A DNA stretch of 36,315 nucleotides from NCBI GenBank assembly GCA_903919045.1, contig CAIXGU010000009.1:1-36315 (forward strand), read 5' to 3'. A program made the translations under genes and the position numbers. Below, piece by piece: positions 15,591-21,041 of the stretch. Below the pieces are notes generated by a model. The model saw only the letters and a program-made list of their open reading frames with translations. It did no database searches and had not been told where the DNA came from. This DNA is from an uncultured Eubacteriales bacterium. Lineage in GTDB: Bacteria; Bacillota; Clostridia; Saccharofermentanales; UBA5734. Each line of letters begins with the position of its first letter. Position 1 is the first letter of the stretch.

Positions 15591-16627
15591 GGGGCGGCTC
15601 CTTCCTGGAGGCCTTCCTCGAACGCGTCGAGGAAGGCCGCGGGGTGCGATTGCATCGGGAGGTGTCCCGCGCCCGCGATGCGGTGCAGCGGGACGCCGAA
15701 CGTCTCCGCCAGGGACTCTCCGCTGGAGATCGGGATCCAGGCGTCCTCCGTGCCCCAGATCAGGGCGACGCGGACTCCGGTCGCGCGGAGGCGCTCTTCG
15801 AGGTCGGGCGGGACGCCGCCCGCGCCGCTCCGCGCGATCGCGAGCAGGGCGCGCGCCGTGCCGGGCACCCGCAGCGGCGCCGCGTAGGACGCGAGCTCCT
15901 CGTCCGTGGGCGCGCGGCCCATCGCGGAAGCCAGCATCCCGCGCACGCTCCCGGGGAAGCGCAGCAGCAGGTCGAGGACGTCCGCTGCGGCGCGGCCGGC
16001 CGGCGGGAACGACAGCGCGGTACCCAAGCCGCCCTGTGCGCCGGGCTTCCCGGACTCCGCCGCGTGCACCGCGCCGTCGACGAGCACGACGCGCTCGATC
16101 CGCTCCGCCTCCTGCAGGGCCATCCGCGAGACGATCGTCCCGCCCATCGAGTGCCCGGCGAGGATCCACGGGCCGTCGAAGACCGCTTGTTGGGCCGCGA
16201 GGATCTCCGTCAGGCGCCAGAGCGTCGCCGCGTTGCGGGCGTGCGAGTAGGTCGCCGCGTCGATCCGCTTGTCGCTGTACCCGAAGCCGGGCACGTCGGC
16301 CGCCGCGACGGCGAAGCCCGCCTCCGCGAGGGCCGGGGCGACGGCGTCCCAGTTCGCGCCGGACCCGCCGAAGCCGTGCACCAGCAGGATGCGTCCGCGG
16401 AGGGCCATCGAATAAAGCGTGCCGTCCGGCCCGCGGGTCTCCGGGAGATAGGTGCGCACGTAGACCGCTGTCCCGTCGACGTCGACGAGGCGCCCCCCGT
16501 CCGCCAGCGCGCCCGCCTTCTCCGGCGTGTACGCGGAGAGCGGGTACGCGTACGGCAGGACGAGCAGCGCGGCGAGCACGCCCGCGACCCAGGCGAGGAT
16601 CCGCAGCCCCTTTCCCTTCCGCTTCAT
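15587..16627 (-). CDS. Alpha/beta hydrolase with N-terminal membrane anchor
   Basis: RILLVHGFGGSGANWDAVAPAL...WILAGHSMGGTIVSRMALQ (nucleophile elbow GHSMG) ... GAGHLPMQSHP. Confidence 0.92.
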   Translation of the reverse strand: MKRKGKGLRILAWVAGVLAALLVLPYAYPLSAYTPEKAGALADGGRLVDVDGTAVYVRTYLPETRGPDGTLYSMALRGRILLVHGFGGSGANWDAVAPALAEAGFAVAAADVPGFGYSDKRIDAATYSHARNAATLWRLTEILAAQQAVFDGPWILAGHSMGGTIVSRMALQEAERIERVVLVDGAVHAAESGKPGAQGGLGTALSFPPAGRAAADVLDLLLRFPGSVRGMLASAMGRAPTDEELASYAAPLRVPGTARALLAIARSGAGGVPPDLEERLRATGVRVALIWGTEDAWIPISSGESLAETFGVPLHRIAGAGHLPMQSHPAAFLDAFEEGLQEGAAP

Positions 16628-17325
16628 CCGGTCCTCCCTCCCCCGCGCAGCCGCGCGGCGTCCAGGATGCGGACGCTCGAGCGGTGGAACGCGATCAGCC
16701 CCTCGTCGCGCATGCGGCCGAGCTCGCGGGACATCGACGGCCGCGACACGTGCAGGTAGTCGGCGAGCGCGTCGCGGTTCATCGGCAGGTCGAACGTGGC
16801 GCGCCCGGCCCGCCGCTGGGCCTCGAGCAGGTACGCCGCGAGCTTCTCGCGCATGCCGCGGAGCAGCAGGTACTCGACCTTGCGGTTCAGGCCCAGCGCC
16901 TTCTCGGACACGATGCGCAGGAAGTTCGCGGTCATCTCCCGGTGCTGCGCGAGGCACGGCTGGGCGCAGGGCTCGACCACGAACCGCGTCGGCAGCAGGA
17001 TGACCTGCGCGTCGGACGTCGCCTCGACGGTCGCGGGCCATTCCGCCCCTCCGGCGAATGCGGACATCTCGCCGAACAGATCGCCGGGCGAAAGGACGCC
17101 GAGCACGGAGCGCGCGCCGGACGAGCTGGTCCGCACGACCTGCGCGGCGCCCTCGATCAGCACGCCGACCCCGTCCTGCGGCTCGCCCCCGACGCACAGC
17201 GTCCCGCCCCGGCGCGCAGCGAGGGTCCGCGGGCGGGCGCACGCGAGCAGCGCATCGACCGACGCGGGGGCGAGGCCCTCGAAGAGCGGGCAGCGGTAGA
17301 GGGCTTCGGGGTAGGTCCGGCGCAC
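16624..17325 (-). CDS. Crp/Fnr family transcriptional regulator (GTG start)
   Basis: cNMP-binding fold GVLSPGDLFGEMSAFAGG; C-terminal HTH NRDALADYLHVSRPSMSRELGRMRDEGLIAF; SD AGGAGGAG upstream of GTG. Confidence 0.93.
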   Translation of the reverse strand: MRRTYPEALYRCPLFEGLAPASVDALLACARPRTLAARRGGTLCVGGEPQDGVGVLIEGAAQVVRTSSSGARSVLGVLSPGDLFGEMSAFAGGAEWPATVEATSDAQVILLPTRFVVEPCAQPCLAQHREMTANFLRIVSEKALGLNRKVEYLLLRGMREKLAAYLLEAQRRAGRATFDLPMNRDALADYLHVSRPSMSRELGRMRDEGLIAFHRSSVRILDAARLRGGGRTG

Positions 17326-17354: not shown

Positions 17355-17370
17355 CGTAGCCGGGGCTACG
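17355..17370. promoter_or_regulatory. Candidate Crp/Fnr operator palindrome
   Basis: CGTAGC-CGGG-GCTACG perfect 6-4-6 inverted repeat in the divergent crp / ferredoxin intergenic region. Confidence 0.65.
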
Positions 17371-17384
17371 TACTGGATGGCCCG

Positions 17385-17413
17385 ATTGTAGTACACTCGG
17401 CGGCGGAAGACAA
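17385..17413 (-). promoter_or_regulatory. Predicted promoter of the Crp/Fnr operon
   Basis: Minus strand TTGTCT (17408-17413) - 17 bp - TACAAT (17385-17390). Confidence 0.55.
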
Positions 17414-17423
17414 GGAGACCCCC

Positions 17424-18239
17424 ATGAAGCGCAACATCATCACCATCGACGAGGACAAGTGCAACGGCTGCGGCGTCTGCATCACGGCCTGCCATGAAGG
17501 CGCGCTCGCGCTCATCGACGGCAAGGCGCGCCTGGTCTCGGAATCCTACTGCGACGGCCTCGGCGCCTGCCTGCCGGAGTGCCCCGCGGGTGCGATCGGG
17601 ATCGTGGAGCGCGAAGCCGACGACTTCGACGAGGAGGCCGTGAAGAAGCACCTCGCGAAGGACGGCGGAGCGGACGGGAAGCCGGGCCATCCCGGTCACG
17701 GCGGCCACGGGCATCACGGCCACCACGGTCACCATGCCGACCGCGGCCTGCGCGGCGCGATCCTCGAGGACCTGCCCTGCGGCTGCCCCGGATCCCAGGC
17801 GAAGACGCTCTCCCGCGCCGCCGCGTCACCCGCCCACGCCCCCGCTGCGCCCGCGGCGGCCGCCGAAGCGCCGGTCTCGCAGCTGCAGCAGTGGCCCGTG
17901 CAGATCAAGCTCGTCCCGCCGACCGCCCCCTACCTGCGCCGCGCGCACCTGCTCATCGCCGCGGACTGCGTGGCCTACGCCCGCGCCAGCATCCACGAGG
18001 AGTTCATCAAGGGCCGCATCACCCTGATCGGCTGTCCGAAGCTCGACGAGGGCGACTACTCCGACAAGCTCGCCGCGATCCTGTCGGCGAACGACGTGAA
18101 GAGCGTCACGGTCCTGCGGATGGAGGTCCCGTGCTGCGGCGGCATCGTCCAGGCGGTGAAGTCGGCGATGCAGAAGAGCGGCACGCTGGTACCGTGGAGC
18201 GTGGTGACCGTCGGGACCGACGGGAGTATACTGGACTAG
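17424..18239 (+). CDS. 4Fe-4S ferredoxin-type protein with His-rich linker and C-terminal domain
   Basis: DEDKCNGCGVCITACHEGALALIDGKARLVSESYCDGLGACLPECPAGAI; linker KPGHPGHGGHGHHGHHGHHADRG; C-terminal ADCVAYARASIHEEFIKGRITLIGCPKLDEGDYSDKLAAIL. Confidence 0.92.
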   Translation: MKRNIITIDEDKCNGCGVCITACHEGALALIDGKARLVSESYCDGLGACLPECPAGAIGIVEREADDFDEEAVKKHLAKDGGADGKPGHPGHGGHGHHGHHGHHADRGLRGAILEDLPCGCPGSQAKTLSRAAASPAHAPAAPAAAAEAPVSQLQQWPVQIKLVPPTAPYLRRAHLLIAADCVAYARASIHEEFIKGRITLIGCPKLDEGDYSDKLAAILSANDVKSVTVLRMEVPCCGGIVQAVKSAMQKSGTLVPWSVVTVGTDGSILD

Positions 18240-18288: not shown

Positions 18289-18615
18289 ATGGTCGAGCGC
18301 AACCACCCCTTCACGCGGACCGACGCGAAGACGATCGAGCGGCTGATCGAGGACGACCACGTCGGCATCAACCACATGGTCCTCGGGAAGGGCGATGCGC
18401 TCCCCGAGCACTTCGCGAACTCGAACGTCTACATGATCGTCGTGCGCGGCGCGGTGCAGCTCGTCCTCGACGACCACGAGGCGAAGTCGTATCCCGCGGG
18501 CTCGATCCTGTCCATTCCCTTCCGTACCAAGATGAACGTCTCGAACGTCGGCGACGCCGTGCTCGAGTTCTTCGTGGTCAAGGCCCCCAGCCCCCGCTCC
18601 ATGCAGGGGATGTAG
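18289..18615 (+). CDS. Small cupin-domain protein
   Basis: MVERNHPFTRTDAKTIERLIEDDHVGINHMVLGKGDALPEHFANSNVYMIVVRGAVQLVLDDHEAKSYPAGSILSIPFRTKMNV. Confidence 0.85.
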   Translation: MVERNHPFTRTDAKTIERLIEDDHVGINHMVLGKGDALPEHFANSNVYMIVVRGAVQLVLDDHEAKSYPAGSILSIPFRTKMNVSNVGDAVLEFFVVKAPSPRSMQGM

Positions 18616-18640
18616 ACCAGCGGCCTGACCCGCTGCGGCA

Positions 18641-18689
18641 CGTTCGACGCGGCTCCTGCGAGGCGGGTCCGAGCAGGAGGAGAGCGTCG
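18641..18689 (+). repeat. Left copy of 49-bp hairpin-forming inverted repeat
   Basis: CGTTCGACGCGGCTCCTGCGAGGCGGGTCCGAGCAGGAGGAGAGCGTCG; reverse complement matches 19571-19619 at 47/49 positions by eye. Internal stems CGACGC/GCGTCG and CTCCTGC/GCAGGAG. Confidence 0.9.
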
Positions 18690-18734
18690 CATGCGGCGCA
18701 ATACGCGCCGCGATGGTTCGGGACGCCCCTCGCC

Positions 18735-18771
18735 CGCAGTTCCTACGGCGCGTGCCGCTGCGGCGGACGAC
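18735..18771 (+). repeat. Left outer inverted-repeat module
   Basis: CGCAGTTCCTACGGCGCGTGCCGCTGCGGCGGACGAC is the near-identical reverse complement of 19429-19465. Confidence 0.85.
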
Positions 18772-18802
18772 CCTCCGGTCGTCCATCCATCCATCTGCGG
18801 TT

Positions 18803-18843
18803 ACGGGGTGCGGCGTGCGCGATGTTACGCCGTACCCCGTTTT
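18803..18843 (+). terminator. Rho-independent terminator between cupin and acidic-protein gene
   Basis: ACGGGGTGCGGCGT-N10-ACGCCGTACCCCGT (14-bp stem with one G-U) followed by TTTCC. Confidence 0.8.
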
Positions 18844-18917
18844 CCATGCGGTATCCTTCGGAATGTAGCCACAAGGACCCTTCCTGTCCCTGAATGCACG
18901 CTACGGAGGAATCGTCG

Positions 18918-19373
18918 ATGAAGAAGACCTTCTTTCAGATCGCCGTCCTGCTGCTGCTGATCGCCGCCGTCCCGTTCGCCTACGTCATCGCGGCGCCGAA
19001 CACCCACATGGGGCAGCTGCTCCGTTCCAATGGACTCTATCAGGGGCTCGAGGGCGGCAACGGTTCCGGCGAGGACACGCTCGAGGACCTGGCCTCCCCG
19101 ACCGACGCCGCTCCCACCGGCGACCCGGCGGCCGACGTCACCGGCGGCGCGACGCCCGAACCCACCTTCGATCCGAACGCGCCCGACGTCACCGGCGGCG
19201 CGACTTCCGAAGCCACGTTCGACCCGAACGCGCCCGACGTCACCGGCGGCGCGACCTCCGGCGGCGCCCAGGGCGAGGACGTCGACGACGACGAGGACGA
19301 GGACGAAACCTACGAGGAGCACGACGAAGACGGACCCGAGGACGAGGAGCACGAGATCGAGGACGACGACTGA
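18918..19373 (+). CDS. Secreted/anchored acidic repeat protein
   Basis: ATG with GGAGGA SD; signal/TM segment MKKTFFQIAVLLLLIAAVPFAYVIAA; 17-aa repeats PDVTGGAT.E.TFDPNA; C-terminus DDDEDEDETYEEHDEDGPEDEEHEIEDDD. Confidence 0.8.
   Translation: MKKTFFQIAVLLLLIAAVPFAYVIAAPNTHMGQLLRSNGLYQGLEGGNGSGEDTLEDLASPTDAAPTGDPAADVTGGATPEPTFDPNAPDVTGGATSEATFDPNAPDVTGGATSGGAQGEDVDDDEDEDETYEEHDEDGPEDEEHEIEDDD
19134..19262 (+). repeat. 51-bp in-frame tandem repeat (2.5 copies)
   Basis: GACGTCACCGGCGGCGCGAC recurs at 19134, 19185 and 19236. Confidence 0.9.
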
Positions 19374-19398
19374 CCGTACCTCCGACGCACGCCAACGC

Positions 19399-19428
19399 GA
19401 AGGGCTCCCGGGCGACCGGGAGCCCTTC
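19399..19428 (+). terminator. Hairpin terminator-like structure after acidic-protein gene
   Basis: GAAGGGCTCCCGG-GCGA-CCGGGAGCCCTTC, perfect 13-bp stem with GNRA-type loop; no strong T-tract. Confidence 0.65.
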
Positions 19429-19465
19429 GTCGTCCGCCGCAACGGCACGCGCCGTAGGAGCTGCA
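19429..19465 (-). repeat. Right outer inverted-repeat module
   Basis: GTCGTCCGCCGCAACGGCACGCGCCGTAGGAGCTGC; inverted copy of 18735-18771 with about 2-3 mismatches. Confidence 0.85.
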
Positions 19466-19559
19466 GGTCGCCGGGCGTCCCGCATTCCAACGGCGCGTAA
19501 CGGGAAATGCCGTAGGAGCTGCGGCTGACAGGGAGCGCCCGGATCGCCAACGTCCCGTA
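19451..19559 (-). repeat. Two diverged tandem units, 58-bp period
   Basis: GCCGTAGGAGCTGC starts at 19451 and 19509; units end CCAACGGCGCGTA and CCAACGTCCCGTA. The left arm has one unit, the right arm two. Confidence 0.75.
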
Positions 19560-19570
19560 CTGCACTACAA

Positions 19571-19619
19571 CGACGCTCCCCTCCTGCTCGGACCCACCTC
19601 GCAGGAGCCGCGTCGAACG
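19571..19619 (-). repeat. Right copy of 49-bp hairpin-forming inverted repeat
   Basis: CGACGCTCCCCTCCTGCTCGGACCCACCTCGCAGGAGCCGCGTCGAACG; 47/49 identical to the reverse complement of 18641-18689. Confidence 0.9.
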
Positions 19620-19766
19620 GGACGTAGTCGATCCGGTCGCCGGGCATCAATTTCCGCAGGAAAAACCGCACGATGCGCCCGTTTCCCTTCATCCGTTGTC
19701 CTTATAATGGAGTCCGGATGGACCCGGCCCCTGCATGGATGCGGGTCGGCTCCGCAGGAGGACGCG

Positions 19767-21041
19767 ATGGAAGGGTTCGCATGGGAAGGCAACGGGCGGC
19801 CGATGACCGACGCCGCGCTGGACGCGGCGCTGCGGCAGGCGGTCGAAGGGCGCACGCTCCGCAAGGCGCTGCTGCTCCCGCCGGACATGACGCGGCTGCA
19901 TTCGTACGCCGGCGTCATCGCATCGAAGCTCTACGCGATGCTCAAGGACCGCTGCCACGTGGACGTGATGCCCGCGCTCGGCACGCATGACGCGATGTCC
20001 CGCGAGGAATGCGCGCACTTCTTCCCCGGCATCCCCTACGAGGCGATCCTCCCCCACCGCTGGCGCACCGACATCGTGAGGATCGGCACCGTGCCCGCGG
20101 ACTTCGTGAAGGAGGTCTCCGAGGGCCTCATCGACTACGCCATCGACGTCGAGGTCAACGAGCGGATCATGGACCCGACGTACGACTGGATCGTGTCGAT
20201 CGGGCAGGTCGTGCCGCATGAAGTCGTCGGGATGGCCAACTACAGCAAGAACGTATTCGTCGGCTGCGGCGGCAAGACGATCATCAACCGGACGCACTTC
20301 CTCGGCGCCGTCTACGGCATGGAGCGCCTCATGGGCAAGGACCATTCGCCCGTGCGCAAGGTGCTCGACTAAGCCGAGCGGGCGTTCCTCTCCGACCGCC
20401 CGCTGGACTACATCCTCACCGTGACGACGGCGCCCGAGGGGGCCGCCGTCCTCGAGGGGCTGTACATCGGCCGCGAGCGCGCGCTGTTCGAGAAGGCCGT
20501 GGCCCTCAGCCAGAAGCGCAACCTGATCTTCCTCGACCGCGCCCCGAAGAAGGTCGTGGTGAACCTCGACGAGCGGGAGTTCAAGAGCACCTGGATCGGG
20601 AACAAGGCCGTGTACCGGACGCGGATGGCCATCGCCGACGGCGGCGAGCTGGTCATCCTCGCGCCCGGGGTGCGCAAGTTCGGCGAGGATCCGGCCATCG
20701 ACGCGCTCATCCGCAAGTACGGCTACGTCGGCAAGCTCGGCGTGCTCGCCGCGTACCGCGGGAACCAGGACCTGAAGGACAACCTGTCGGCCGCGGCGCA
20801 CTTGATCCACGGCTCGTCCGACGGCCGCTTCGGCATCACGTACGCGGTCGAGCACCTGACCCGGGCGGAGGTCGAAGGCGTGGGCTTCCGCTACGCCGCC
20901 CTGTCCGAGGTCCGGAAGCGCTATGACCCCGCGCGCCTCGCGGAGGGCTGGAACGTCCTCCCCGACGGCGAGGAGATCTTCTACATCGGCAACCCCGCGA
21001 TCGGCCTGTGGACCGACCGGACGAAGTTCGAGGCCACCTGA
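19767..21041 (+). pseudogene. LarA-like (DUF2088) nickel-dependent hydroxyacid racemase/epimerase homolog interrupted by one in-frame TAA (20370-20372)
   Basis: ORFs 19767-20372 and 20373-21041 are in the same frame: ...GKDHSPVRKVLD*AERAFLSDRPLDYILTV.... LarA-like motifs ALLLPPDMTRLHSYAG, ALGTHDAMS, VFVGCGGKTIINRTHFLG. Confidence 0.8.

Follow-up and report, generated by a model that had tools for sequence, protein, structure and literature searches.

A single palindrome in a bacterium without hcp from which an HcpR-type regulator probably activates a ferredoxin operon and damps its own gene

Results and Discussion

In an uncultured Eubacteriales bacterium that lacks hcp, an HcpR-type regulator probably turns on a ferredoxin operon and turns down its own gene. 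The stretch of DNA that we analyzed (36,315 nucleotides, contig CAIXGU010000009.1, hereafter the window) carries a palindrome, CGTAGC-CGGG-GCTACG, at positions 17355 to 17370 between two divergent genes. We propose that a dimer of the Crp/Fnr-family protein encoded on the minus strand at 16624 to 17325 binds this palindrome as the single operator of an HcpR2-type locus. From −41.5 the dimer would contact RNA polymerase as a class II activator and switch on the frdX-cupin operon, and the same bound dimer, sitting at +9 to +24 of the regulator's strong promoter (TTG-17-TAnnnT), would damp transcription of its own gene. The likeliest signal is nitric oxide (NO) or nitrosative stress, probably sensed by a metal or Fe-S centre on Cys29, Cys120, Cys124 and His128 and not by a heme pocket of the P. 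gingivalis type. Taken as a whole, with activation, autorepression, NO signal and metal or Fe-S centre included, we consider this switch probable.

One palindrome between two opposed promoters

The intergenic gap is 98 bp long and extends from the GTG of the regulator gene (minus strand, 17325) to the ATG of the ferredoxin gene (plus strand, 17424). A first-pass annotation had described a palindrome in this gap centred at 17362.5, and when the coordinates were recomputed both sequence and centre were right. On the plus strand, the −10 element TACACT (17392 to 17397) predicts a +1 for frdX at 17404, which places the centre of the palindrome at −41.5. Recomputed spacing and hexamers agreed with this and with the earlier remark that a good −35 is missing, as the hexamers 15 to 19 bp 5' of TACACT are TACTGG, GTACTG, CGTACT, ACGTAC and TACGTA, none of them usable. 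On the minus strand, the predicted regulator promoter consists of a −35, TTGTCT (17408 to 17413), and a −10, TACAAT (17385 to 17390), separated by exactly 17 bp as had been claimed, and with +1 at 17378 the palindrome spans +9 to +24 of the predicted transcript. Neither Rfam models nor a tRNA scan gave a match in the window.

Class II promoters that depend on FNR or CRP have a site centred at −41.5 and a −10 but no −35. The frdX promoter has the same centre and a −10 and, judged from its sequence, no functional −35. It is unlike class II promoters in general in that its DNA is shared with an opposed canonical promoter, that of the activator gene. It is this geometry that points to autorepression.

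The site and its spacing are conserved in related Firmicutes

The statistics of the palindrome are suggestive, not decisive. A perfect palindrome with 6-bp arms around N4, whatever its sequence, has a 6% chance of occurring in 98 bp, and the palindrome alone is only moderately improbable. By chance the exact GTAGC-N4-GCTAC is expected about 8.5e-5 times in the 98 bp between the two genes and about 2.3 times in the 2.64-Mb genome, where one copy was found. Since a single genomic copy is at chance level, it is conservation that provides the evidence. The looser GTWRC-N4-GYWAC gave seven copies in the genome scan; among the others, only the copy upstream of nifS has a clear functional context, the one on contig C161 lies just beyond the end of an FtsX gene, and the neighbours of the copy on C261 and of the remaining ones are uninformative. 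The first-pass annotation had named the absence of other genomic sites as a result that would refute its proposal, and taken literally this is what we found, as there is no second exact site. We judge the test itself to be wrong, because the regulator is local and its conserved target is the divergent operon.

Orthologous regulators came from contigs in GTDB, from genomes related to that of the window, and from a sample of the phylum in which the ferredoxin's C-terminal domain served as query. After removal of near-copies, 51 regulators with an HcpR2-type helix were left, and the alignment, centred on the site, comprised 48 loci; the other three had no site at the threshold used, one being a locus (L002) whose regulator has moved away. 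In the 48 non-redundant loci the site adjoins the same regulator, which is mostly divergent from the same ferredoxin gene (frdX) or from hcp, and G1, T2 and C5 of the half-site are invariant or nearly so in both halves. A G-T-n-n-C filter had been used to select the sites, and conservation within the site is thus partly built in, but this does not apply to the spacing or to the promoter elements beyond the site. On the frdX strand, TAnnnT starts exactly 22 bp past the 14-mer, giving a centre at −41.5, in 42 of the 47 loci besides the window, and among these 47 loci no other site-to-TAnnnT gap has a count above 21. In 41 of the 47 the TAnnnT of the regulator strand has the same fixed position. 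A CAA (TTG on the regulator strand) occupies +48.5 to +50.5 relative to the centre of the site, with each base present in 35 to 42 of the 48 loci, and this position gives a 17-bp spacer to the regulator −10. The frdX promoters across the loci have no conserved −35. Consequently, two earlier claims gain comparative support: the class II activator position, by the 22-bp gap kept across the 48 loci, and the overlap with the start of the regulator transcript, by the opposed −10 and its 17-bp-spaced −35. Judged from this conservation, the palindrome is a real and deeply conserved switch site.

Two natural displacements were found. In G001, a genome of the same genus, a site GTAGC-CCCG-GCTAC remains with frdX though the regulator is displaced, and the opposed regulator promoter is unrecognisable on the frdX side. 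In G003 (L232, G003:C284), frdX carries the identical 14-mer, the divergent gene is, as judged by eye, of GNAT type, and the genome yielded no HcpR orthologue. That the site stays with frdX in both cases argues that it belongs to frdX first. The gene that uncouples the regulator gene from the site in G001, between hcpR and the frdX operator, is uracil-permease-like (L142, 1717 to 3102).

A regulator of the HcpR2 branch

The regulator is a protein of 233 amino acids with Pfam matches to HTH_Crp_2 and cNMP_binding, as expected of the Crp/Fnr family, and its AlphaFold2 model (pLDDT 89) matches CRP-family structures; HcpR of P. gingivalis (PDB 9day) comes at Foldseek rank 20 with 21% identity. In its recognition helix, HVSRPSMSREL, the segment SRPSMSRE carries the Arg180/Pro181 pair that marks HcpR2 (Rodionov et al. 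2005, PMC1274295), and within the clade Arg180 is present in 49 of 49 and Pro181 in 47 of 49. The gene is linked to frdX, from which it diverges in the window as it does in most orthologues, and the orthologous regulator faces hcp itself in one locus (L004) and an frdX-hcp operon in members of the family. The kinship with clostridial HcpR that had been suggested earlier is borne out by this helix signature and by these orthologues, which place the regulator in the HcpR2 branch.

With that branch as described (PMC1274295) the window shares the Crp/Fnr family, R180/P181, the link to frdX, a 5-N4-5 palindrome and, in relatives, the link to hcp. It differs in its GTAGC half-site and in having Met for Leu in the recognition helix, and also in the deletion of hcp, an extra Cys3-His set and a cupin gene in the operon. 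The published HcpR2 motif, GTAACnnnnGTTAC, is not found here, where the site reads GTAGC-N4-GCTAC; in sister loci GTAAC accompanies a Leu in the helix, and we read the GTAGC site as a variant within the HcpR2 branch. A separate group of frdX-associated regulators (L018, L097, L158, L173, L193 and L225) has a [DE]RSAM helix, and the two inspected by eye (L018 and L097) have GTTG[TG]-N4-[AC]CAAC-like palindromes.

The frdX operon has lost hcp

The first gene of the operon (17424 to 18239, plus strand) encodes an frdX-type ferredoxin of 271 amino acids with an N-terminal 4Fe-4S domain and a conserved, Cys-containing C-terminal domain. The second (18289 to 18615, plus strand) encodes a small cupin-fold protein of 108 amino acids (Cupin_2, E 7e-4, below the curated cut-off), whose orthologue holds the same position in G001 (L002). 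In G001 the gene order is frdX-cupin-hcp-larA, and hcp is likewise linked or present in other family members. The two sequences align up to position 18618 of the window and resume from 19669, hence the place of hcp between cupin and larA has been cleanly taken by a segment of about 1.05 kb (18619 to 19668 of the window versus 4385 to 6163 of L142) with nested inverted-repeat arms of 73, 39 and 34 nt around an acidic repeat ORF (18894 to 19373) that has no Pfam match. No hcp remnant was detectable in the window, and a profile search of its genome, which is 94% complete and has the locus itself intact, gave no PF03063 match. The replacing segment was also considered as a known mobile element and rejected, with no full-length copy elsewhere in the genome. 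About 10 of the 172 frdX-bearing genomes of the phylum sample are without any prismane-family gene (lists compared by eye), and frdX without hcp is therefore a rare state. The window's genome has two ODP-domain (flavodiiron-type) matches, and these proteins could act as NO reducers in this hcp-less genome. The larA-like gene (Lar_N, 19707 to 21041) has an in-frame TAA at 20370 to 20372 with the same frame open beyond it, which is either a pseudogene or a sequence error.

In C. difficile, inactivation of hcpR abolishes the NO induction of frdX and hcp (PMC12915319), and the loss of induction in the mutant supports an activator at −41.5. The role of HcpR there, activation of the frdX-hcp pair under NO, is predicted to be shared by the regulator in the window, although the C. 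difficile protein has Ser at 181 and a different motif (per Rodionov et al., PMC1274295) and hcp is present, whereas the window has Pro181 and hcp is absent.

Half-site preference and a second site at nifS

The fourth base of the half-site appears to follow the recognition helix. All 22 regulators with Met at residue 198 (window numbering) go with G, as GTAGC or GTTGC, and all 22 loci with A as fourth base have Leu in the helix; four Leu regulators go with GTAGC. This coupling of Met/Leu to G/A is a correlation, not proof. Phylogenetic proof was sought and given up, as with only two to four independent changes on the tree a sign test is powerless. The base is followed a little more closely by another column (window residue 158) than by the helix residue, and shared ancestry could thus still lie behind the coupling.

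In the window's genome (G000), the nifS gene (match TIGR03402) is preceded by GTAAC-N4-GTTAC (L114 / L282, G000:C272:30397-30410) and, 22 bp after this site, by a TAnnnT. Site and TAnnnT at gap 22 are kept in the orthologues of G001, G002, G004, G005 (one mismatch), G007 and G008 (L251-L256), that is, in seven genomes of the family with G000 included. G008 has no match to HcpR, hcp or frdX, yet the nifS site is present; its Crp paralogue has the helix RPSF, and the G000 counterpart (C220) has RPSL. In the window's genome there are at least three more Crp-family relatives. These data suggest that a paralogue of the Leu/Phe type uses GTAAC for Fe-S assembly (nifS), which would explain the use of GTAGC by HcpR in this family. 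Another Crp paralogue in G000 (L281, G000:C159:11813-12472) has an NRSAL helix and a GTTGG-N4-CCAAC just upstream of its own start.

A putative metal or Fe-S sensor

Of 49 regulators, 48 have Cys29, 47 Cys120, 49 Cys124 and 46 His128, and the Cys/His set is lost together in L202, L228 and L229. For the HcpR2 branch, where an Fe-S-type cysteine motif is expected to be absent, the picture is mixed: the regulator does not have the N-terminal cysteine motif of E. coli FNR, but it does have this conserved set. HcpR of P. gingivalis senses NO with heme via Met68 (PMC12750200), and the window regulator shares its fold (PDB 9day) and, by prediction, its role in the NO response. However, in a hand alignment through the 9day profile Met68 falls opposite Lys/Arg (Arg65 in the window), and the Cys-x3-Cys-x3-His loop is absent in 9day. 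In its simplest reading the Cys29/Cys120-x3-Cys124-x3-His128 set suggests an Fe-S or metal sensor. This is in line with the model for D. desulfuricans HcpR2, a proposed Fe-S-containing NO sensor that controls hcp and is damaged by NO (PMC5701242); that protein was modelled as a repressor released by NO, while the window regulator is read as an activator.

A wider scheme, which we offer tentatively and would not be surprised to see fail, is that one clade of HcpR proteins in Firmicutes senses NO by a cluster on C29 and C120-x3-C124-x3-H128, unlike both the four-cysteine FNR and the heme of P. gingivalis, that in this family half-site codes set by the recognition helix separate the Crp-type relatives (Met with GTAGC at frdX, Leu with GTAAC at nifS, RSAL with GTTGG), and that frdX-cupin serves nitrosative defence without Hcp here.

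Alternative explanations

Two observations speak against the proposed switch as such, namely that the single exact site is about the number given by chance and that the signature target hcp is absent, and the D. desulfuricans model speaks against activation in particular. If that model applied here, the regulator would be a repressor of both promoters: at −41.5 it would occlude RNA polymerase on frdX, where the site overlaps the place of a −35, it would block its own gene, and NO damage to the Fe-S centre would free both. But frdX promoters without a conserved −35 should be weak without an activator, occlusion does not need the exact −41.5 spacing that is conserved, and C. difficile hcpR mutants lose induction with no gain of expression (PMC12915319), so we regard dual repression as improbable. 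About as improbable, perhaps a little less so, is that the geometry is right and the HcpR label and NO signal are wrong, with a different Crp/Fnr member or another signal (redox, CO or sulfide) at work. The missing hcp, a half-site GTAGC versus the published GTAAC and the further Crp-family relatives in the genome would all fit this, whereas the orthology of the divergent regulator to those facing hcp or frdX-hcp, and a helix Met/Leu that tracks the half-site G/A, would not; the RPSL paralogue is a better fit to the separate GTAAC sites at nifS.

A role for the palindrome as a hairpin in the leader RNA of the regulator, and not as a protein site, is very unlikely. The palindrome could form a 6-bp stem with a 4-nt loop at +9 to +24, but it remains with frdX where the regulator is displaced (G001, G003), several loci have GTTGC/GCTAC sites with a T-T mismatch, and the phasing to the frdX −10 is fixed. 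A chance palindrome in a G+C-rich genome would agree with one exact site per genome, and is already refuted by the conservation of sequence and spacing across the 48 loci.

Conclusions

The HcpR2-type switch with frdX activation is thus our preferred reading, and the locus is to all appearances a variant form of the HcpR2 system already described: it has lost hcp, which is unusual, its half-site is altered and its sensor may be distinct. The ferredoxin family concerned is important for NO tolerance and little understood, and the locus offers a one-site promoter for it. We also propose a further specificity position for HcpR-type regulators (Met/Leu to G/A), together with a specific residue set as the NO-sensing centre of the Firmicute HcpR branch. 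As a naturally hcp-less case, the locus lets one ask what frdX does without Hcp.
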